Part shown: piece after piece, positions 38,762-62,199 of the stretch
Layout of the letters: each line of letters starts with the position of its first letter
Numbering within the stretch: the first letter of the stretch is position 1
Assembly: GCA_963693305.1 (NCBI GenBank)
Contig: OY855907.1
Location: 37,032,356 to 37,096,355, forward strand
DNA length: 64,000 bases
Direction of reading: 5' to 3'
Origin: Meandrina meandrites
Lineage: Eukaryota; Cnidaria; Anthozoa; Scleractinia; Meandrinidae
The notes under the pieces: generated by a model
The model's database searches: none
Told to the model about the DNA's origin: nothing
Seen by the model: only the letters and a program-made list of their open reading frames with translations
Position numbers and translations under genes: made by a program

Positions 38762-39038
38762 GTTGACAAAAGAAGACGACGTTTTATGCGCGTTTAATTC
38801 ACATCACCATCCAAAAAGAGTGCATAAAATTCCACAAGGGGTTTCGAACTTGCTTGAAGAAGCTATCAAAGTTACAAGAGCATCGATTTCATCGACATTT
38901 TAAATTCAATCGCAAGTTTCTTGCCATTTTAATCAAAATGGCGGACTTCGTCTCGTTGATACTGGTTGCTATGGCGGTTTTATGCTCTCGCCCCAGGCCC
39001 TCGAGAGATGGTCGTAGCTCAACAAATGGGTCCAATAC

Positions 39039-39074
39039 CAAGGAGGATTGGAACCTATTCCCAAGCTACTTTGC
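39039..39074 (+). repeat. Left terminal inverted repeat of the 9.9-kb transposon
   Basis: The first 20 bp match the right end perfectly. After one mismatch CCCA matches, and TTTGC matches further in. It overlaps the start of a likely untranslated first exon ending at a GTAAGA donor (39192). Confidence 0.85.
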
Positions 39075-39671
39075 GAATCGTGTTTTTGTAATTTTGCCAC
39101 GTATCAGATCACGTTTCAGCGAGAACCCGAATTTTGGAGATCTTTCACGCCGTTTTTGTCTTATTTAAATTGGTCCAATGGAGTGAAGAAAGGTAAGATT
39201 TTTTTCTTTATGATCTCTTCTTTTCTACTGTTTATTTGTTGGGGCAAAAACTCTGATTCGCGACACTCAAAATCCCACATTTCTTTGATGAATTTATTTG
39301 AAACAGTTGGCGCGTTATTTTTCGTCAAAATGCGTTTTAAAAACCTCTTATAATATAAGTTAAACGTGGAGGCTTTCCCAGAAAAACATTATTACGTCAA
39401 AGAAGAATAGTTCATGAATAAATAGAATGCAAAGGTCGCGCAAGGTCGCTTCGTATTGACTTATTTTGAACCCATTGAAAATCCCTTTGTTTATCTTCAA
39501 CGAGCTGTGTAATGTATTCTAAAGAAAATGGCGCGCTCGTAGCGTGATATTCCAACTAACGTTTTGTTGAGCTGATGACAATGTTGTCGCTTTTCTTGAG
39601 TCAAAATATTGCGTTTTTTAGCTTATACAGTTGCACTGAAAGTAGAAATGGGTCTTCTTTTTTCTTTAGTG

Positions 39672-42600
39672 ATGAGTACTCCAACGAAAGAAAACAAGAG
39701 ATGCCACGTCACGAGTGGCCTAACACCGAATGAAAAGAAAAGGAATCGGCCACAACGGCAAATTGGTTCAAGAAAATCTCTCGACTACAAGTCGGTCGAA
39801 CATATTACCAAGGTGAGCTTTTTAGTTATTCTTGGGCAAATGGCTGTAATTTTTTAATGCTCATTGACACTGTCATCTTTTGTTGTCCATATTATTATAG
39901 TCGCCTTCGCCATGCATCAAGGGAGTTTTACAGAGGACGATAATTGTTACTTCTCCGCGAAAAAGTCCCGCAAAGAAGTATCCTTGGTCTGAAGCTGAAG
40001 ATCGGGCCACAATTCAGTTCATTGCCTTGCACAAAGATGAACAGGCCTCTGAGAACGAGTGGCCAGCCATGAGATCAGAAGCCGAGTACTGGAGTCTGGC
40101 AGCAAGGTATATTAAATCGGCAACAGGTGTTCAGTACCTTCGAAAAGGTAAATTCTCATACATAACATAGCTATGATTCTATGTTAATTCTCTTTAGATT
40201 TTTGTTTTTGATGGTTGGTTGTTTACTGTATTTTTCCTTAGTGAGTTTTTCTAAAGCTCAATGTTTAATTTTCAATAATTTAATTATATTCTCCAGAGAT
40301 GGATGTTAACATTTTTGAAAACTATTATCATTAAACTCTGATCCTCATTCTTCAGATGGGATTTGCAAAAAATGAAATAAAAAATTCTTCACAGATGGGT
40401 GGTTGTTAGTCAAAGTATCTGAAGTTTTGTGAATTAATTGTGTATCTTTATACATGACGATGCACTGTTGATCTTCTGTTCCTATTTTCTTCAACTTTTA
40501 GGGGAAACAGTTACACTCTATTGACTTTAAATATTATTATGCTCTTTTTTACAGCACAGTCAATTCGGCAAAGAGTGGTCAACCATTTACGTAAAAAGTT
40601 TACAACTGTTGATGATGCAGAGGATGCGTATGGAATTACAGTTGATTTCTACCTGGCGAGCCCTTCTGGCAAGGAAAATACCCCAACAGCACAAAAGGAA
40701 AAACAAAGTCAACCTCCTGTCATTCCACAAAAAGTGATGGATATGCTTGGAAAGCTAACTGGTTGTCAGCTGTCAATGCTTGCTGCCCACATAATGGAAA
40801 ATCTGGCAGTGCCAATTCTTCAGTCCACTTTACTGAAAGTGTTGCCAAAAGTTCTTCCCAGCTTGTGCGTGTCTGATGTGACTGATTTGCTGTCCTCCTT
40901 GACCAAGATAGCTTCTCGTGAAGCTCTGCTCAGTGTTGCTGACAGTCTTGTGTGCAGTGTAGCATCCAAGACTGGCCTTTCTTGGAATGTTAAGGGGTTC
41001 CTTGAAACTGCTTGCAGAGCTATGTGTGAATTGGAGGCCCATGATAAACCCAATGTGGTGTATTTCTTGTGCCGATGCATTGCTGACAAGAAAGAGGATG
41101 GAAAATCACCAATTCTTCCTCTTGATCGTATGCCCTTTGGAATGATTCAATATCAGCTAGAATTCTTCAATGCAACACACATCTGCCAGGTGATAACATA
41201 ATAAAGTTGGATTGATATTTAACCCAAAAATATTTTTAGATCTTTTTAATTTTTGATTTTGGATAAAAAAATCAGACAAGTCTGTTTTATATATTGGCAC
41301 TTGGAAATTGCTGTTGCAGTTTAAAAATGATTTTTGTTCTTTGTTTAAGCATTGGCATTATGAATCTAAACAGATAAATGGCAATACAAACTAATTTAAA
41401 ATCATTTTGACCTGAAATTAATAAAAAAAACGGACCTCAAACTATTCTTGTATTTTTATTTTTTAATTTAAAATCAGATTAAAGAGCCTGAAGATTTTAG
41501 GATGTGGCGAGAGACCATGGAGTCGGAGTTCGGAGGTGGCAAGTTCAAGCGCCTTTTTAGGGGGCCAATGTGGAGTTCATGTGAAAGGAATGATATTGGT
41601 GTTCCTCAACAGGTATTCATAAAAGGAAATGAAAATTAATGGAAAAAATTCATTTTTTTGTTTTCTGTCTCCAGATGATGACTCCCATGGAAAATTACTA
41701 TTTTTTATCATAACATGTAATTTGTAAACATTCTCCAGTTTCATTACCATTTTCTGGAAAAACTACACAAATTGATGCTGTTCACAAAATACATGTAATT
41801 GAGACTCTTTGGAGTCATATCTCATTTGACTTTAATTTGTAACAAATTATGAGGTTTTTATGTTATTATTGAAGGTGAGGTTGTTATGTTATTATTATTA
41901 TTATTATCATTTCCCTTTAGGCAAAGGTCAATGTTGCCTGTATCAGTACAAGGACGCAGAACAAAAGAAATAAACGTTCTCAGTTTACTGGAAAACCTGA
42001 AATTCAGGTACATTGATTGATAATATCATAGTTACCCACTCGCAGATAACCTTGTTGATTAATAACACATTGTAAAACATCACAGGAACCTTAATGCCTC
42101 TACATATATATATATGTTCAGATGAGTTTTTGGCCGAACATTCCCTATAGGGTTTATATGTTACATTCCTCCGAGTTAATAATTATGTCTCCAACCTTCA
42201 TCATCTGATTATACATGAAGATGGCTGAATCCTGATTGTTGTATGTTGTTATCAGAAAGCTAAAAGTGTAAAATTAAATATTCTTCTACATTTTGTGTGG
42301 TGTAATTGAGTGTAGTAGTACCGATTTGAATTCTTAACTGCCTACAACACCCAATTTAAATTATTGATTTTTTTTTATTAGGTTGCAGCTTTGAAAGACC
42401 TAAAATCTGCTAATCCTGATGGTCGCTTCTGGATCAAACTGGATGGTACTGATGTGAAGCCTGCACTGCTTGAATCCATGCGAAAGGAGTGGAATGGTGA
42501 TGTGGATCTGGGAAATGGGGAGTTGCAAGCTCTACGTTGTGAATACGACGAGAGAAATTCAGCCTTCAAAGAGGCACCCAAGGCTTCCAATTGCCATGAT

Positions 42601-45600
42601 CTCCAGCAGAGTCTTACTAAAGTGATTGATAAGATAGAGGGAGACATTGTCTTTCTTACTAGTGGTCTGGAAAAAGCTGCGAACTTGTTTCGTGAAAAAA
42701 TGCGTAAGCAGACAACATCAGAAGAAACTCTGAGGTGCTTAAATTGGGAAGTTGTGGAGTTTCAAGTCCTACTGGAACAGAGCAACAACTGGCTTCAGCT
42801 CCTTTCTGATCTTCTTGGAGACTTGAATCCAAATAACCCAGCTCTAGCACCTGTGGTTGCAGTTTTGAAAGACTCAGAGAGCAACATGTCTCTGTACTTG
42901 AGAAACATTTTCAAGAAGAAAAGGCAACCAGCCGCAACGCATGTGCTGGTGTTAATGGTCTCTGATGAAAGGAGAAACAAGAAGCCATATGCTCTTCCTG
43001 TTCAATACATCCCATATTACAGTTTGAAAGACCAATACATCCGGGACTTTACCAAGGTTCTAAAGCAGAATATGGTCCAGTTAGGGCTTCATGTAGTTGG
43101 TGAGTTGATAATCAAATTAATGATTATGATTGGAATTGTGACACCCCTTGAGCCTGTTCAAAAGCCCAGTAAGTCCGGCAAAGTTTATAATGACATGCAT
43201 AAAAGTTCAGAAGAATATTTGAAATATTCATCCTTCTGAGCCAAGAAACCTTGGTACAAGTCACCCAGTTCCTGTTATTAATCTGTGAAGTATATTAATG
43301 CAGATGCAGGGTGTTTGTGTAATGTTACTATGCTTTTAAAGAGGTAGTCAGATTATTTAACAGTTTTTGGGTTGGTATTATTTAAGGAAGGGAGATTAGG
43401 TTGTTATTTGTTGTTGACCCCTGAAATTTGAAAAATCCTAGGCACAGTATCTGATGGTGAGTTTGTTACATTGCGAACCCGTGGTGAGACGAGGTCTGTG
43501 CACATCTGGCAGCTGATCCATGATGCAAGGAGTAGCGTGGCGAAACTTGGCAAACAAAAACTTCTTGAAATGCTGGTACTGCAAGGAGGTAAATATTATT
43601 CTTCAAACCATTCTCCTTTCGTTCTAACATGTTGTATTTTCTTTAATATTATCATAGTCGAGTAGCATAGTTTTTTATTTATTTGGCAGGTATGTACTTT
43701 GTGATTAATAGGAACTGTCAGGTTATGACAACAATCTGAAAATGATGACTTGGAAAAAGAATGTAAATGTACACAAAATAGTAAAAAAATGGGGACTCAG
43801 GAAATGACAAGTGCAGGAACATAGGGAGATTTGATAATTTTTAGCTTGAGAAATGTTTATTGCTCACATCTACGAGCAAACGAATAACATATTTTCACAA
43901 GGCTTTCCTGGGAAAGAACAAGTAAATTACTATAAAACTGTGAAGCTGATTAATTGTTAATAATTGAAAATTGCAGTCAACCCAGATGGGACACCACTTG
44001 TGAGAAGGCCCAATGATGCCATTCCAAGAGAAGTGATAACGGACTTATTCAACCTGCAAGTCAGAGATAGATTGAGCTTGCCAGATGCCATTGCTAATAT
44101 CCGTGGAAGTTTGATTCCTGCTGGTTACACCCCTTGGCCATTTCGACGTGATACCCCAGAAAGTATGCTTGACATGCTGAGGTCCATTGTTGCAACATAC
44201 GAGTTCAGGAATACAGTTAAATCTTTGAATGAAGAATTTGGAGCTGATTTCACACAGCATTTGTATGTCCCTGAAATTGATCCAGTAACAGGCAGTGCAC
44301 ATCATGAACGTGGAGATCACAACCACATTTTGAAGAGAGTGGCAGCATGTACCCGGAATGGCAACTACTCAGATCTCAATTTTGAGGCATTTGTGGAGGC
44401 CATGCGTTCACCTGACACTGGCCTGACCTACACAGCACTTGCAGGGAAACGGAAGCAATCTGTGGTTGATGCAGAAAGGCTCCTTTCTTATCATGTGGCC
44501 AAGTTCTTCAGAGAAAAGGGTTATGAAAGAGAGTACCAGTATGTGAAGGTTATTGCTCAATGGCATGAGTCATCTGATGGAAGAGGCCTATCACAGTTGA
44601 AGAGGAGCCAGTACAACTATGAGATGTTGAACTACATAATTGATGAATGGATGCCCTGGCATAAGGATGATTATGACTTATCAAAGATTGACATCAACAG
44701 GTATATTTTTTAACTCTTCCCACTTAAAAGTATGCACAATAATAATATTAATATTAATAATGGGGATCTCTAAAATACAATAACAATAATAATTGAAACA
44801 TTCTGCTTTAAAAAAATACATATTAACAAAATATAAAAGCTCATTAAAATATTTTTGTTTGCAAAATCTAATATTTGTTTACTAACATCATTATTTTTAA
44901 ATCAAATTTTACAAATTTCGAATATAAAAGAAGGGAAAATCCTTAGAAATTCTATATGCATTATTCTGGCTTCATATGTAATTTGAGAGTCTTTCGTTGA
45001 TTATTTTTATTTATGTTGTTATTATTATGTTGATAATTAATTGTCAGTAAGACCTTTCCTGGCTTCACTCTTGCTACTCAGAGAATTGCTTTTTTTTTTT
45101 ACTGTGACTAACTGCCAGCTTACTATGTTCAAATTATTGTCTGTTGTTATGATGCTATATGTAGGGTTTTTTTTTCTAGACCAGTGGAATACATCCGAGG
45201 TTTCACAAGAGAAGTAGTTATCGAAATTACAGCAAACATTGAGAGTCAGGAGCTGAGGAGGTGCCAGAATAATGAAATTGGATATCCTGAACACCCACGC
45301 GCAGGATCAACAGAGGACCTTGAGTGCTTTTTTGGTGTGGCACATAGCCGTTTGGGGAACATTTTTACACTGAAAGAGTTCAAAGATGGTTGGCCCAAAC
45401 TTGTAAGGTACAGTTTAAATTACCCTAGTCAATATTAATGTGGCACCGTATGGATTCTAGATATTTGAGGGCAGAACGTCAATCCCTCACCATACCTCCT
45501 GTGCATCGTAGTGGCATTCCAGAAATTTGTTCAACATATAAAATCATTTGATTAGTTAAAATAAATTCGTGTAGGCATGTCAGGTAGAGGAAATGGATTT

Positions 45601-46094
45601 TGCCTGTCAACATGATTTGCCATGTGATATTATTTGGCATCATTTCTTACAGTCATCAATAAATATAAATGTATTCATTTGTCTGTTCTCTAAGCTTAAT
45701 TATATCCAAAGGTATTGAGTCTCATTTCCAATGTTTCTTTAAAAGGGAAAATTCCAAGCGCTTGAGTAGCGAAACCCTACCATTCTACTACTGGACCGAG
45801 AATGACCGTTTCAAAGAAGGGTCACTAGATTCCTTTGATGTCATCCCTGGTCAGGTGGACAGTGACGATGAACAGGATGATGAACATGGTGACGAAGATG
45901 GGCCATCCAGAAATCCTCTGCGCTTGCACAGGCTCATGAGGAACCAAAGGGAAAGCGTAGCTCACTTTGTCCCTAGTAGAGCATTCCTTCCAGCAAGGGA
46001 TGATCGTACAGTTAGGCAACAGCATCACCGCCCTAGGTCAGGTGTTCCTCCCCCCTCTGGTTTTTTGTTTTCAATCAATGAGGAAAATCAATGA
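39672..46094 (+). CDS. Myb-like/RNase-H-fold (DDE) transposase-related protein, 1136 aa
   Basis: Ten coding exons: 39672-39812, 39901-40147, 40555-41189, 41478-41612, 41921-42007, 42382-43099, 43442-43588, 43977-44700, 45180-45407 and 45746-46094. All phases agree (3411 nt). The ATG lies two bases after a splice acceptor (39669), so a 5' UTR exon ending at 39191 is likely. Residues about 70-135 (PWSEAEDRATIQFIALH, then YWSLAARYI) look like a Myb/SANT or trihelix DNA-binding domain. The catalytic core resembles P-element/THAP9 transposases: D436 in FWIKLDGTDVK followed by GDVDLGNG; D659 in LHVVGTVSDGEF preceded by THVLVLMVSDERRNKKPYA; E993 in STEDLECFFG. The D436-D659 gap (about 220 residues) is longer than in P transposase because of an insertion. 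An acidic tail (DSDDEQDDEHGDEDG) ends the protein. The family call rests on motif reading only. Confidence 0.82.
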
Positions 46095-47051
46095 TCATCA
46101 TTTATCATGCATTCATGGTGACAATGCAATTATTTTATCTTTGGCGACTTTAAGGAATTTGTATACAAGAGTAGCCAAAATATGCAAGTGACCAATAATT
46201 AAGTTACCTAAGATAATGCCTGTTTATAACAAATATTCATTTTCTTCGGTTTATCAAATAGAATCACTTGAAGATAAAATGAGAAGTAATTGTCAACAAA
46301 AGTTAAATCACACTAGTTAAAAATTTTCACAGCTGCAGAGTTAACACACTTGATGTGGTTAATCAAAAGTTTTTCTCTTCAGTAGCAATTATTAGCTGTC
46401 ATAGTTCAAGTCTACTTCACTGAAACTGTTGGGAGTAAACACAACACACAGGTGATCAGTTAATATGTGGATGAGTTTATTACAATAAAATCTGCAGAAA
46501 TGTCTAAGCACTTTATTGTCTGCCTACCTTAAAAGCCTTAATTTTCCCACTCCAAACTATGCCTTGTATATGATTATTATTTTAAGTTGTACAAAAATTT
46601 ACCCCAATCCTCATTTACACAAACTTTTTCTAGAATTTTCTGCTCCAGTAAATGTCCATACTTCCCACAAAGAAGGGATTGGAAATTCCTGTTGATTCGA
46701 GGGGGGTCTCAAAGGCCAAACATTTTAAAGAAATGTATGAATCTAAATTGGGGGGGGGGGGGGGGGGGTCCTTAGAAAAAGACACTTCTTGGGGGGTATG
46801 AATATTTCCTGGAACCACACATTCAAAAGTCAAGCTTTGAGTGGGTGGAAATAAATGTGAAGTTTTTTTAAATGTATGAAAATGTATCTTCATCTCTCAA
46901 ATTATGGACAAGTAAAGATGAGCTACCAGTTCCCATAATACATTTTCAGAATTATGGTTTCATACAGTTCGACGCCACTACAGGGATGGAGTTAAGCAGA
47001 TCCTTTATTTGGGTTAATACTTGAATTGGCATGGTTGCAAATTAGGAAAAT
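46095..47051. other. Spacer between the two convergent transposon genes
   Basis: Non-coding, presumably the 3' UTRs of both genes. A G run is at 46750-46768. No further ORF is supported. Confidence 0.5.
46750..46768 (+). repeat. Poly-G run
   Basis: About 19 consecutive G. Homopolymer length is likely unreliable. Confidence 0.85.
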
Positions 47052-48825
47052 TTAATTGATAGTGTCATTGTATTTGTAATTGGCATCAGTAGGAAGCCAA
47101 CTTCCAATTTTTGAAATTAGCACACGAGGATGGTACAGCCAGTCATTCAAATCTGGGACAAACATAAATCCAATGAATTTAAACTCCACTTTCTGAATTT
47201 CATTGCTCCTAATTGCAACAACAGTTTTTTTTAATTTCTCTTTGGGGATGTAACCAATACGACACCATGTGGTGTCTACATATGCCTCCACTGTCACAGC
47301 ATTCTTATCCCTGATGTTGGTAGGTTCTGGGCTCACCCGAAGTTCGATTGCTTCACTTCGCAACTGAAGTTGCTTACACTTCCTTAAAGTTTTCTGACAA
47401 TCTTCATGGTAGCTGCTTCCTTTCAAAGCAAAGTACTCCGTAAACTGCTCGATTTCATCATTAACTGGAGTTTCTTCATCCAGTTGATTATCAAGTTCGT
47501 CACCACTTTCCGCTGTTTCATTTGGATCTGACAATTCAGAGCTGGACTGACAGGATTGTTGTGTTGCAGCATCACTGTCGTCGGACCTGTCAACAATTAC
47601 CTTTCCAGTGGCTGGGTAATTAGAACAATTGCAACTGCAAACCAGCACTTCCAGCCAAGGTGTGCAAGGCACTGGATCCTCTTCCTCATGATCTACCTTG
47701 GGTGGAACTTTCACAGAATACGAACTGGGGACCACTTTGAATTCCACAACAACAGATAATGTTCTGTTATTTGCCTGTACATCAAAAAGAAGGGGAACTA
47801 AGCATTAGCTAACAGTATTTATTTCAGTTGTTCTAATCTTTAGACCTGCTTGAATGACAATGATGCATGTTCTTTGAAATGCAAATGAGCTTTACTTTCA
47901 ATAACAAAGACAATACAGCTGCAATGAATGAAACAATATGGCAGCCAAGAGTTGTTAAATCGTGGAATTTTAACTTCCAATCACTCTGAATGAATTGTTC
48001 CTAATGTTTAAACCTACTTGAATAGCAAACATGGAAATGGTGTATGTTTCCTTGAGATGCAAATGAGATTGTACTTGAATATAAACAAAGACAACACAGC
48101 TCCAATGAGCAGCCAAGAGTTGAGAAATTATAAAATTTTAACTCCCAATCACTCAGGAAAAGTCGGTCTAAAGGAATTGGCTAAGAGAGCGAACAACATA
48201 AACTGGCAGTGTAGGCCAGCAGCCTAAGCAAGACATATTTGCTTCTTTACTCGCTCGGATATGGTAGATACAAAAAATCGCGATCGTGAATGGGTTTCTC
48301 TAACGTTAAATGACACTAGAGTTAGCTCAATCGAGAAATGAATTGTTGAGACACTTAGCTTAATATAACAACTGCTTAGCACTTCGATAAGGCTAGTTAG
48401 GACAGAGACTGTTTAATTGTGACACGCGAATTCTTAGAGTAAAAATTTTCAATTGTGAAATGTCTGAAGACAAAGAAAATGGGCTTCGCAACGTCAAACA
48501 AAGCTACAATTAGCTGATTAACCAAGAAATTAATCACTGTGAGGCTTACCTTGATGTTACAACTATTTATCACTTCGATTAGCACTGGAGATGGTCGATC
48601 CTTGAGAAGATTCAGCACTTTTTGCTGAAATAAAAAGCCACACATCCTTCGCTCAGCGATTTTCTCAGGAAAACTGACATGGCCAAGAACCAAATTAACC
48701 TGAAGACAAGGAAATTGTTCCAACTGAACACTTTCCTGAGCTCCAAGATCGTAGCAATGGAGATAAATAAGGCTTCGTTCGCGAAATGTCGGAGCTGATT
48801 GCGACGTGATCTCGATGAAATCCAT
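47052..48825 (-). CDS. HIRAN-domain-like transposon accessory protein, 332 aa
   Basis: Two exons: 48550-48825 (ATG at 48825, 92 codons) and 47052-47774, joined in phase 0 by a GT-AG intron. The N-terminal half, about 130 residues, is unrecognised and followed by an acidic Ser-rich linker (DRSDDSDAATQQSCQSSSEL). Residues about 234-276 resemble the HIRAN core: EPTNIRDKNAVTVEAY (acidic/Asn-Ala-Val motif) then CRIGYIPKEKL (Gly-Tyr-Ile-Pro motif). HIRAN domains, known from HLTF and Rad5, bind 3' single-strand DNA ends. A role in handling transposon ends is an inference. The gene lies wholly within the inverted-repeat element, about 90 bp from its right end, and is transcribed towards the transposase gene. 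Confidence 0.75.
47830..48160. repeat. Two direct copies of about 160 bp inside the HIRAN gene intron
   Basis: Copies begin near 47833 and 47998. Both hold CCTGCTTGAATG or CCTACTTGAATA, GCAAATGAG, CAAAGACAA.ACAGCT, GCAGCCAAGAGTTG and TTTTAACT.CCAATCACTC. They differ at about one base in six, so the duplication is not recent. Confidence 0.75.
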
Positions 48826-48876
48826 AGCGAAATGAATTGGTCACGTGATTGAAAAAAATGATAATATAGTTTGAAT

Positions 48877-48912
48877 GCAAAGCATTATGGGTATAGGTTC
48901 CAATCCTCCTTG
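48877..48912 (-). repeat. Right terminal inverted repeat of the 9.9-kb transposon
   Basis: The reverse complement of this end starts CAAGGAGGATTGGAACCTAT, identical to the left end for 20 bp. CCAATACC follows outward in direct orientation. Confidence 0.85.
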
Positions 48913-49210
48913 CCAATACCAAAGATCCCAAAAACGAGAATAACTTTCAATCAAAAGTCTCAAAAATGATCTTTTTTTTACACACAGGCAAAGAAGATCG
49001 TTATGGCACTTTTGTACTCTCGTCCCAGGCCTTCAAGTGAGGTGTCCATGAACCCCAGCTCCCTACGCCACCCACAATTCACATATCCTTTGAGCTGAAT
49101 GGCAATTAATGGTCACATTACACATCAGTTTGGCCAGAACCTGTACCCATGCGCAGAGCCTATTACCTGTGGAGTGGCAGCCATGGACAGCTGTTTTGTC
49201 CGTGTTAGGG

Positions 49211-49330
49211 ATCATCGCATATATATCACCATGGCAACCATTGCATTCAGATCATCGCATATATATCACCATGGCAACCATTGCATTCAGATCATCGCAT
49301 ATATATCACCATGGCAACCATTGCATTCAG
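49211..49330 (+). repeat. 40-bp unit repeated three times exactly
   Basis: Three identical copies (49211-49250, 49251-49290, 49291-49330) start ATCATCGCATATATATCACC. Perfect identity suggests very recent expansion. Confidence 0.97.
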
Positions 49331-50032
49331 ATGGTTAATTATAGCAATTAAGACTTTCAAACCACAAATATAGAATCAATCTTATTAAGTCCCAAAAGTG
49401 TCAAATTTTAAGTCTTACATTGTTCCTGTGACAAAAACAACTTTTTTAAAAAAATTTGCTTGAGTGTGCAACCACAAGATAATTTGCTCAAGCGGGGATA
49501 TCTGCAAATGGCAAGGGGAATTGTTTCATAGTGTATGCAACTGAAAGGTCTGCAGACAAACAAAATAATTAAACCCATGACAGCATAAAATGCTACACAG
49601 TTTTATTTATTTTAACTAAAATTACCAGTTTTTACTTTTTGATCACTGATAGACCTCCTTTCTAAACTAGGCAAAGCAACTGATGAAACCATGAAAATGA
49701 CTCAAGGGGGTGGGTACCCCCTATGACGGACTATACAGGGGGGCTCAACCTGAGAGGGGTATCCTTTTTCAGGCTGTAGGTATATAACAGGGCAGAGATT
49801 GCACAAGTTGGAGTATACAAAAGCATCAGCAAAACTGCCATTAATGTATTGATTAAAGGGATTTCAAAATATCTAAGAACAGATCCACTGAGCAGTTGTT
49901 TCATTTAAGTATTTTTAAGGAGTAATATTAAAAATATACTCTATCACTTCTGTTGGTATGTAAAAGGGGTAGCATTTTCTATTAAAAGGTATATAAACAA
50001 GATTACTTTTTCTGTCAAAAATGGTATTGACT

Positions 50033-59200: not shown

Positions 59201-59551
59201 GGGAGTTTAGCACGTGATAGTCATCTAGGCCTCTAAACCAGCCCAGTTCAGGGCTCCGTTTATTTTTTATTTTTAGTTTTTCAGATTGTTCTTCGCCTTG
59301 TTGTCGGCTAGCCTTGAATTTATTTGTAAAGCCTCAGTAGGATGGGCTACCAATTGTTGGAGCTTGAGCCATGGTTCCTACCCAGATTTCCTGCTTCTTT
59401 TTTGCCCACGGGGTTTTTTGTGGCAGGTTTTTTCTGGCCTCCGTGCTAATCGCGTTTTCATTGTATGCGGTTGCTCAGCTCCGTTAGTTTGTTTATTCCA
59501 ACTGATTTGTATTTATATTCTTTACTCCTGCTTTTGTAGCCGGGATGTTAA

Positions 59552-62185
59552 GGTGGCTCGACTGGGTTTTTTAGGGGCAACACCGCTCAAGTTTGAGAAC
59601 TAACCAGACTGTCATTAAAGTGCTACTATGATGAAATTCGCATGTTTTCTTTCGCAACCGTTTTAAAATATTAACAAGTACTCTATATGAGAAGCAAAAT
59701 GCCGTTTACTGTTTTCCAATACCTCTTTTTGTTCCAGAGATATTCAAGTTTTTTTGCAAATTAGCAAAGTAGTGACGTCATACACTCAACCAAATTCTGA
59801 TTAAATACTAAGAAAGTGATATCTCAGCCAATTTGTATTGAAAGTCTCTGATTCTTTGCAGTAACATTCTGCTAGTTGTGTTTCACAATATGAACTTGAC
59901 AACTTGGTTACCATGGCAACATACTAGGTTCCAGATCCCCCAAATGCTTAACACCTTTCTGGCCAATTCTGGCATTCTCCGCTAATATTTGTAAATAATG
60001 CTTTACATGCGAGATCTAGCAAGCATATCAATGGATTTGGCAGACGTCTTGCCTGGGTTTAATTTTTCCGAATTGAAAAATTCTGAAATATTAAAAAAAA
60101 ATTGATGGGGACTGGAAAACAGTGAGTTGCCATGGTAACATAATTTTATTACAGCTGTAGGTGTGTCACCTGAGGAACTATTAGTCTGCCAAGTTTCATT
60201 GGTCTCTGCAGAAAAATGACCGAGATAGCTTAATTTTTGTACTTGACAAAAAATTGGGTTGAGTAGATGACGTCATCAGTTCCCTAATTTGCATATTTTA
60301 CGATTTTTTTAAGCTTAAATATCTCTGGAACTTAAATAGATATTTGAAAACGGTAAACGGCATTTTTAATCTTTCATTAAATACTCTTTGAAACGCCTAA
60401 AATTGATAGGGGTGAAAATTTGATCATAGTACCACTTTAACAATGCCATCGAAAAACGATCACCACAGCTGAATTAGGTAAAGATGAAAATTTGTTATGA
60501 CCAGTGTTATTTTGACATCGGGGTTGTCATAGCAACGTAATGACGTCATCACGTTTATCAATTTCGTTCGTATTGCTCGGCACCAGGAGGTTTTTTCGGA
60601 AATCGCTCAAGGGAGCATGTACCTCCTATACCTGCCTCAATGTTGGCAAAGTTTGAACAAATTCTGTGAGAGCGTTATCGAAATTTTTGGGGATGAAGTT
60701 TCGAGGGTCATAAATACAGTAAAAAACATACTATTGAGATAATAGGGTAATATCTGAAGAACACGACGCGCTTTGGGAATGCAGTTTCATCTCATAGTAG
60801 TTTGATGCCATTTAAAATTGTGTATACAAAATTATGGGGATCGCCACGACCGATTGCGAAAACGGATTTGATGAGCGTGCATTCAGGTGCTCTTGTTGCC
60901 ACTTTTGTAAATAATTTGGTCTACACCTACAAATGTGATAATTATTTGGAAACCGCTCGATGAATTTTTTTAAAAACTTGTCAATCTCGAGTTTTGTCAT
61001 CAGTTTATATGGCCTGCAAGTTTCAAGGTCATTGAAAACATGTAAGACAATAAAATCGGGGCTCCAATGTACTACTTTTTTCTCCCAGATTTTGTGTTTA
61101 CAAGTGAGTGTCCTCATTATTCACGGGCATTGTATTCAACTTTCATTTTCACGTGCACAACTCAGCAAAAAATTCATTTGCATTAAACAGAATGCTCAAT
61201 CGCTTTCTAAAAATGTTCGGGAAACATGCTGATATGACTTGAAAACTGTAATAATATTTGTTACGCCATTAGACTGTAATACAGCAATGCCGAGGGTCTC
61301 TTTCTCCAGGAAACGAAAAGCTATTTTTGTGTAGAACAACAGATCAGGAAAAAAGTCTAAACTCACTGATAAAATACAAATGAATTTTTTGCTGAGTTGT
61401 GCACGTGAAAATGAAAGTTGAATACAATGCCCGTGAATAATGAGGACACTCACTTGTAAACACAAAATCTGGGAGAAAAAAGTAGTACATTGGAGCCCCG
61501 ATTTTATTGTCTTACATGTTTTCAATGACCTTGAAACTTGCAGGCCATATAAACTGATGACAAAACTCGAGATTGACAAGTTTTTAAAAAAATTCATCAA
61601 GCGGTTTCCAAATAATTATCACATTTGTAGGTGTAGACCAAATTATTTACAAAAGTGGCAACAAGAGCACCTGAATGCACGCTCATCAAACCATTTTTTT
61701 CGCAATCGGTCGTGGCGATCCCCATAATTTTGTATACACAATTTTAAATGGCATCAAACTACTATGAGATGAAACTGCATTCCCAAAGCGCGTCGTGTTC
61801 TTCAGATATTACCCTATTATCTCAATAGTATGTTTTTTACTGTATTTATGACCCTCGAAACTTCATCCCCCAAAATTTCGATAACGCTCTCACAGAATTT
61901 GTTCAAACTTTGCCAACATTGAGGCAGGTATAGGAGGTACATGCTCCCTTAAGCGATTTCCGAAAAAACCTCCTGGTGCCGAGCAATACGAACGAAATTG
62001 ATAAACGTGATGACATCATTACGTTGCTATGACAACTCCGATGTCAAAATAACACTGGTCATAACAAATTTTCATCTTTACCTAATTCAGCTGTGGTGAT
62101 AGTTTTTCGATGGCATTGTTAATGACAGTCTGGTTAGTTCTCAAACTTGAGCGGTGTTGCCCCTAAAAAACCCAGTCGAGCCACC
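59552..62185. mobile_element. TTAA-flanked foldback element (arms about 820 bp)
   Basis: Left end GGTGGCTCGACTGGGTTTTT and right end AAAAACCCAGTCGAGCCACC are inverse. TTAA borders both (59548-59551 and 62186-62189). The left arm, 59552 to about 61182 (minus the nested MITE), is a near-perfect reverse complement of the right arm, about 61370-62185. The spacer is about 190 bp. The ORFs at 60812-61117 (-) and 61440-61727 (+) are the same sequence in the two arms; no transposase is recognised. Confidence 0.92.
59619..60436. mobile_element. Nested TTAA MITE (818 bp) inside the left arm of the foldback
   Basis: Ends AGTGCTACTATGAT and ATCATAGTACCACT are inverse, with longer imperfect inverted sequence inside (for example GCCGTTTACTGTTTTC versus GAAAACGGTAAACGGC). 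TTAA is on both sides (59615-59618 and 60437-60440). The right arm of the foldback keeps the empty site as CATTGTTAATGACAG near 62115-62129, which proves the insertion and its duplication. Confidence 0.93.
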
Positions 62186-62199
62186 TTAAAGTTTCCGTT

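Follow-up and report, generated by a model that had tools for sequence, protein, structure and literature searches.

In a 64,000-nucleotide stretch of the genome of the coral Meandrina meandrites (contig OY855907.1; hereafter the window), positions 39039-48912 (9,874 bp) very probably constitute a complete cut-and-paste DNA transposon that looks intact and autonomous, belongs to a lineage related to the P element and carries two intrinsic genes, one for a large transposase and one for a protein with a HIRAN domain. The sequence CAAGGAGGATTGGAACCTAT occurs twice exactly in the window in inverted orientation, at 39039-39058 and 48893-48912, and no match to it with 3 or fewer mismatches was obtained in 100 dinucleotide shuffles. 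After these 20 perfect base pairs the terminal inverted repeat (TIR) continues imperfectly to 36 nt at 86% identity (39039-39074 on the + strand and 48877-48912 on the - strand). Outside of the inverted ends the element is bordered by a direct repeat of CCAATAC at 39032-39038 and 48913-48919. Both the 20-bp perfect repeat with its extension to about 36 bp and the direct repeat outside of it had been described in an earlier reading of this DNA (the original prediction), and both are confirmed here. The 7-8 bp target duplication proposed at that time is also real, measuring 7 bp in the window if both ends are taken to start CAAGG, but the range for the family has to be widened to 7-9 bp, as 8 or 9 bp are duplicated at other copies. 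Because the left end begins CAA and the right flank likewise continues CAA, the flank identity extends to CCAATACCAA.

The original prediction had suggested searching the same genome with the element ends, and in the 551-Mb assembly that contains the window these ends do recur, contrary to the refuting outcome named there. The left 301 bases are present at five places including the window, with the four other alignments starting at query positions 28, 28, 38 and 40 (the element starts at 40), and the right 311 bases are present at eight places including the window, with the seven other alignments ending at positions 266-275 (the element ends at 273). The two left-end alignments that start at 28 are copies on C13, whose flanks, when read at base level, differ from those of the window. 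We retrieved nine matching regions (L014-L022) for base-level reading. L014 and L015 contain the C13 derivative, which is 5,080/5,081 bp long, lacks window positions 39910-44644 and has GTTGGACC on either side as an 8-bp target duplication; since their flanks are shared and they are 99.9% identical, we treat them as one duplicated insertion. L020 holds a 137-bp left-end remnant (541-677) between GTCGGAAA repeats of 8-9 bp, and L021 holds a 56-57-bp left-end remnant (504-560) between AGCGCAGAC repeats that were scored as 8 bp in the first scan and as 9 bp when a shared A is counted. The first 17 bases of the left end are unchanged in L014, L015, L020 and L021. Within the retrieved stretches L016, L017/L018 (which have identical flanks) and L019 show a right end only, and L016 includes a decayed HIRAN copy. 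Both small remnants are apparently fused to the last right-end bases at a short shared word, the structure that interrupted gap repair would leave. The remaining region, L022 on C8, has 159 bp matching both ends and was rejected as a clean insertion, its ends being degenerate and without a clear duplication.

Open reading frames (ORFs) from other sources provide an independent sign of movement. By eye, the HIRAN-related ORFs P0033, P0036, P0037, P0040, P0054 and P0063 run through the right end in frame RRIG and P0046 does so in frame KEDW, with the preceding sequence differing in each, while P0034 and P0047 diverge within the terminal repeat. Four further HIRAN-related ORFs on contigs of differing length (P0023, P0026, P0027 and P0029) apparently have a common out-of-frame start, also judged by eye, and this looks like the pattern expected from dispersed copies of one broken element.

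The original prediction of two spliced, intact and convergent genes between the ends is borne out by stop-free GT-AG models of 1,136 and 332 residues. The larger gene (39672-46094, + strand) is predicted from the sequence to have 10 coding exons. Exon 1 (39672-39812) holds the ATG and is likely preceded by a non-coding exon, exon 2 (39901-40147) may encode a Myb/SANT region, and exons 3 (40555-41189), 4 (41478-41612) and 5 (41921-42007) precede exon 6 (42382-43099), which carries the putative first catalytic Asp (D436 or D439) and a long insertion that is helical in the model of a Mytilus relative. Motif patterns place the second catalytic Asp (D659) in exon 7 (43442-43588), a DxxH motif (D817/H820) in exon 8 (43977-44700) and the catalytic Glu (E993) in exon 9 (45180-45407), and exon 10 (45746-46094) ends with the stop codon. 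When our own patterns were applied to the window protein and ten relatives (P0001-P0010), the first Asp was recovered in 11/11 proteins, the second in 10/11, and DxxH and Glu in 9/11 each; P0008, P0009 and P0010 account for the misses and are apparently incompletely predicted.

Domain calls on the single window sequence are weak because the scores for both proteins miss the curated Pfam cut-offs. For the transposase this applies to TNP-like_RNaseH_N (E=0.025), a P-type profile that was matched in seven of the ten relatives. In a fold comparison of the predicted model, which is blind to any superfamily whose structure is absent from PDB, the P transposase ranks top. Model residues 654-1097 were aligned to chain residues 305-569, a range that spans the GTP-binding insertion domain of P. 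Foldseek returned no matches at E<=0.001 for the transposase and HIRAN models, and when the window transposase and profiles A1 and A4 were run against the sequences of solved structures, nothing meaningful emerged. Homology and fold lead us to infer that the larger gene encodes a transposase of the DD(DxxH)E RNase-H type. The original prediction of an RNase-H-fold transposase with a Myb-like domain thus holds in its first part, with a core that is P-element-like by fold, but the evidence for the Myb part is weak: Myb_DNA-bind_4 was matched in one of the ten relatives, one row of the fold comparison (rank 34) points the same way, and Pfam gave no Myb match on the N-terminal piece of the window transposase. 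At E<=1 there was no Pfam match to THAP in the window transposase, its N-terminal piece or the table of ten relatives, and the MULE and hAT models likewise went unmatched by the window protein and within that table, given that HMMER filters discard most matches above ~0.1.

Named protein relatives, from sources that include Oculina and Actinostola, are labelled uncharacterised or hypothetical or bear a bare Hypp code. P0011 (Oculina patagonica ACROYT_G015143) is a predicted gene that matches the transposase at 90% identity over a short stretch, either an annotation chimera or an exonised fragment. Scans of viral contigs with alignments A1 and A2 gave 23 and 17 pattern matches and those of a collection of genome contigs gave 80, with no true relatives in either; alignment A3, spoiled by short read-through proteins, was excluded.

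The second gene is predicted on the - strand, convergent to the transposase gene, with exon 1 at 48825-48550 (ATG and an N-terminal part conserved among relatives) and exon 2 at 47774-47052 (HIRAN-type domain and stop). That the accessory protein is of HIRAN type, as originally predicted, is supported by both the Pfam profile (E=0.0034, below the curated cut-off and the sole domain found in 332 residues) and the fold of the C-terminal domain. The corresponding proteins of two divergent copies described below match the same profile at an E value of 9.5e-4 (C7) and at one of only 0.071 (C29). An EPxNxxDxNA stretch presumably corresponds to a similar one in HLTF, and in the alignment that we assume the second Asn is kept in the window, C29 and C7 proteins (EPTN, EPIN and EPDN) while Tyr93 is not. 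In HLTF, the pocket for the 3' end of single-stranded DNA is formed by Tyr72/Tyr93 and Asn90/Asn91 (PMC4666394; PMC11237066). The intron of this gene contains a direct duplication of ~160 bp at 72% identity (47828-48154).

We then asked how often the two genes occur together, using a single exon of each as probe. Transposase exon 8 matched 58 places in the assembly, giving 46 loci after same-strand hits within 6 kb were merged; the 34 matches to HIRAN exon 2 represent 29 loci. Although many loci are fragmentary or distant, 13/46 transposase loci and 13/29 HIRAN loci are paired convergently at distances of 2.3-7.5 kb, with no pairs in other orientations within 10 kb, against a mean of 0.04 and a maximum of 4 pairs in 2,000 draws of random placement. 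As the C13 duplicates account for two of the pairs and a duplication links the two C7 loci, the 13 pairs represent approximately 11 distinct insertions. Unpaired are 33/46 transposase and 16/29 HIRAN loci, and, the window locus aside, 6 of the 11 best-scoring transposase loci have a partner and 5 lack one.

Two divergent copies, on C29 and C7, had been picked from the transposase list with the aim of finding ends, before any HIRAN search result, and both have a convergent HIRAN homologue in the same place. For most exons of the C29 transposase the identity to the window is 46-66%, falling to 32% near the N terminus, and the C29 HIRAN protein is 34-39% identical; the C7 transposase is 42-57% identical (27-33% in the N-terminal third) and its HIRAN protein 27-29%. 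The search for loci with both genes between similar ends, also proposed at the outset, thereby yielded a second complete element of 9,831 bp at C7:5321779-5331609, with ends of its own (CAGAGGAGGGA..) and a 9-bp duplication of TTGAAAACT. A copy on C11, a second chromosome for this subfamily, has the same ends as the C7 element and a 9-bp duplication of ACCGGAATG; the exon-8 regions of the two are 99.5% identical across 3.7 kb, a mark of recent dispersal. In each of the three subfamilies the right end contains ..CCCATAATGC..AACTATATTATC.. or a close variant. A scan for a TIR plus an 8-bp duplication detected neither C29 nor C7, the C7 duplication being 9 bp, and no target duplication was found at C29. 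Since the convergent pair occurs in three subfamilies at 27-39% HIRAN identity, we conclude that the two genes have a long joint inheritance, and the presence of the same pair in divergent relatives within one genome suggests that the HIRAN protein takes part in jumping. A second C7 copy at ~5478240-5488100 (L059, L060) shares its left genomic flank with the first, has lost its left TIR end and has a different right flank, and looks like a product of aberrant transposition or duplication.

By homology and fold, the transposase would cut the element out and insert it at staggered sites ~9 bp apart, and its N-terminal part may recognise the element ends. The HIRAN domain of HLTF binds the 3'-OH end of single-stranded DNA (PMC11237066; PMC4666394) and prefers fork-like DNA (PMC4666394), and the reaction of P transposase is GTP-dependent and produces ends with a 17-nt stagger (PMC7776569). 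Ends of this kind might be held or passed on by a HIRAN partner. By analogy with HLTF we tentatively propose, at somewhat less than an even chance, that the HIRAN protein acts at 3' ends made by the transposase, binding those exposed on the excised element or at the donor break, and that it would either keep ends in the transposition complex or steer the donor break toward gap repair; the small derivatives might be by-products of interrupted repair. In its full form, which we hold just as cautiously, this proposal would describe a P-related animal superfamily that requires two proteins, a large (perhaps Myb/SANT) transposase and a dedicated HIRAN subunit that binds 3' ends and shields or hands over the excision 3' overhangs, thereby setting donor-break repair and the frequency of deleted copies.

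Alternatively, the HIRAN protein could regulate transposition or mimic a host factor rather than act at ends, for example as a transposase repressor, an anti-silencing factor or a competitor of HLTF/Rad5. We consider this unlikely but worth keeping in view, as the isolated HLTF HIRAN domain inhibits Cas9 removal by HLTF in vitro (PMC11237066) and the HIRAN gene survives in the C13 derivative that has lost the transposase. The gene in this derivative is intact, with a ratio of nonsynonymous to synonymous rates (dN/dS) of about 0.23, although this is based on small numbers (7 synonymous and 6 nonsynonymous changes), and its preservation would be expected if the element benefits from the gene in cis or if the derivative is simply young. 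The same ratio speaks against the HIRAN gene being a passenger that derives from a host gene trapped between the ends and contributes nothing to transposition, as does the recurrence of the convergent pair in three subfamilies. Such a passenger would agree with the 16/29 HIRAN loci for which no match to transposase exon 8 lies within 10 kb and with the HIRAN domain being part of a host repair enzyme, HLTF (PMC4666394), but on balance we find it rather improbable.

With respect to placement, the proposed P relationship is based on a P-type RNase-H core with D, D and E and a DxxH before the E, and the element resembles the Drosophila P element and vertebrate THAP9/Pdre2 in transposase core fold, TIRs and internally deleted non-autonomous copies. 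Its ends start with CA, as does the zebrafish TIR (CATACCTG..), and one insertion (C13) has the 8-bp duplication of the P superfamily. It differs from P in its 1,136-residue transposase, its length (9.9 kb versus 2.9 kb), its second gene, a perhaps Myb/SANT-like N-terminal region where no THAP was found, and a first-to-second Asp spacing of 220-223 residues compared with D230-D303 in P, with the additional residues forming helices in the model. The duplications also depart from 8 bp, with 9 bp at C7 and C11, 9 (or 8) at L021, 8-9 at L020 and 7 in the window. Although the element would work like a P element and its fold is nearest to P, the missing THAP match and the departure from 8-bp duplications lead us to file it as P-related and not as a P element. 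A 9-bp target duplication is typical of MuDR, and the cleanest duplications here, at C7 and C11, are of that length. Membership in MuDR or another DxxH superfamily nonetheless seems doubtful, since TNP-like_RNaseH_N was matched in most relatives and MULE and hAT models in none (which a distant relation would still allow), and since P tops the fold comparison among superfamilies with a PDB structure. PIF/Harbinger elements likewise have two genes with a Myb/SANT component, but in those elements it is the second gene that encodes the Myb-like protein and the duplicated target is 3 bp long, whereas in the present element any Myb-like region belongs to the transposase, the second gene is of HIRAN type and duplications are 7-9 bp. 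The DxxH motif is also common to hAT, MuDR, Kolobok and Dada (PMC9587614). Kolobok elements (Kolobok0 with KolX, KolobokE, KolobokD, KolobokH and KolobokP) are eukaryotic DDE transposons that share this motif and have accessory DNA-processing proteins tied to the transposase, but these are nucleases, a helicase or KolX and not HIRAN, and TTAA is duplicated in general (3-5 bp in KolobokP) in contrast to the 7-9 bp non-TTAA duplications here (PMC9587614). Finally, the HIRAN protein resembles HLTF/Rad5 in its profile match and C-terminal fold and differs in its 332-residue length, in HIRAN being the only domain found by Pfam and in an N-terminal region of its own.

The idea of two ordinary host genes between chance inverted repeats draws on the noncommittal names of the relatives, but it is practically dismissed by the shuffle control (0/100, which rules out chance repeats), the recurring ends, the target duplications and the dispersed near-identical copies.

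A pairing of HIRAN with a eukaryotic DNA transposon was not found in the open-access literature searched. If our interpretation is correct, a eukaryotic cut-and-paste transposon is a further setting in which HIRAN operates, beside the fork-remodelling repair enzymes and bacterial proteins in which the domain is already known; a DNA-end-binding partner of a P-like transposase becomes directly testable, and there is a reason for the two genes staying together across a large divergence. Gene catalogues of corals and other animals would then hold mobile genes listed as uncharacterised proteins.

Other repeats are present in the window. A 40-bp unit is repeated exactly three times at 49210-49332, 300 bp beyond the right end of the element, and a tandem array with a 134-bp unit occupies 340-1524. 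A 750-bp inverted repeat of 98.4% identity (60437-61184 versus 61373-62122), accompanied by an identical 71-bp inverted pair (59548-59618 and 62119-62189), is possibly another mobile element.
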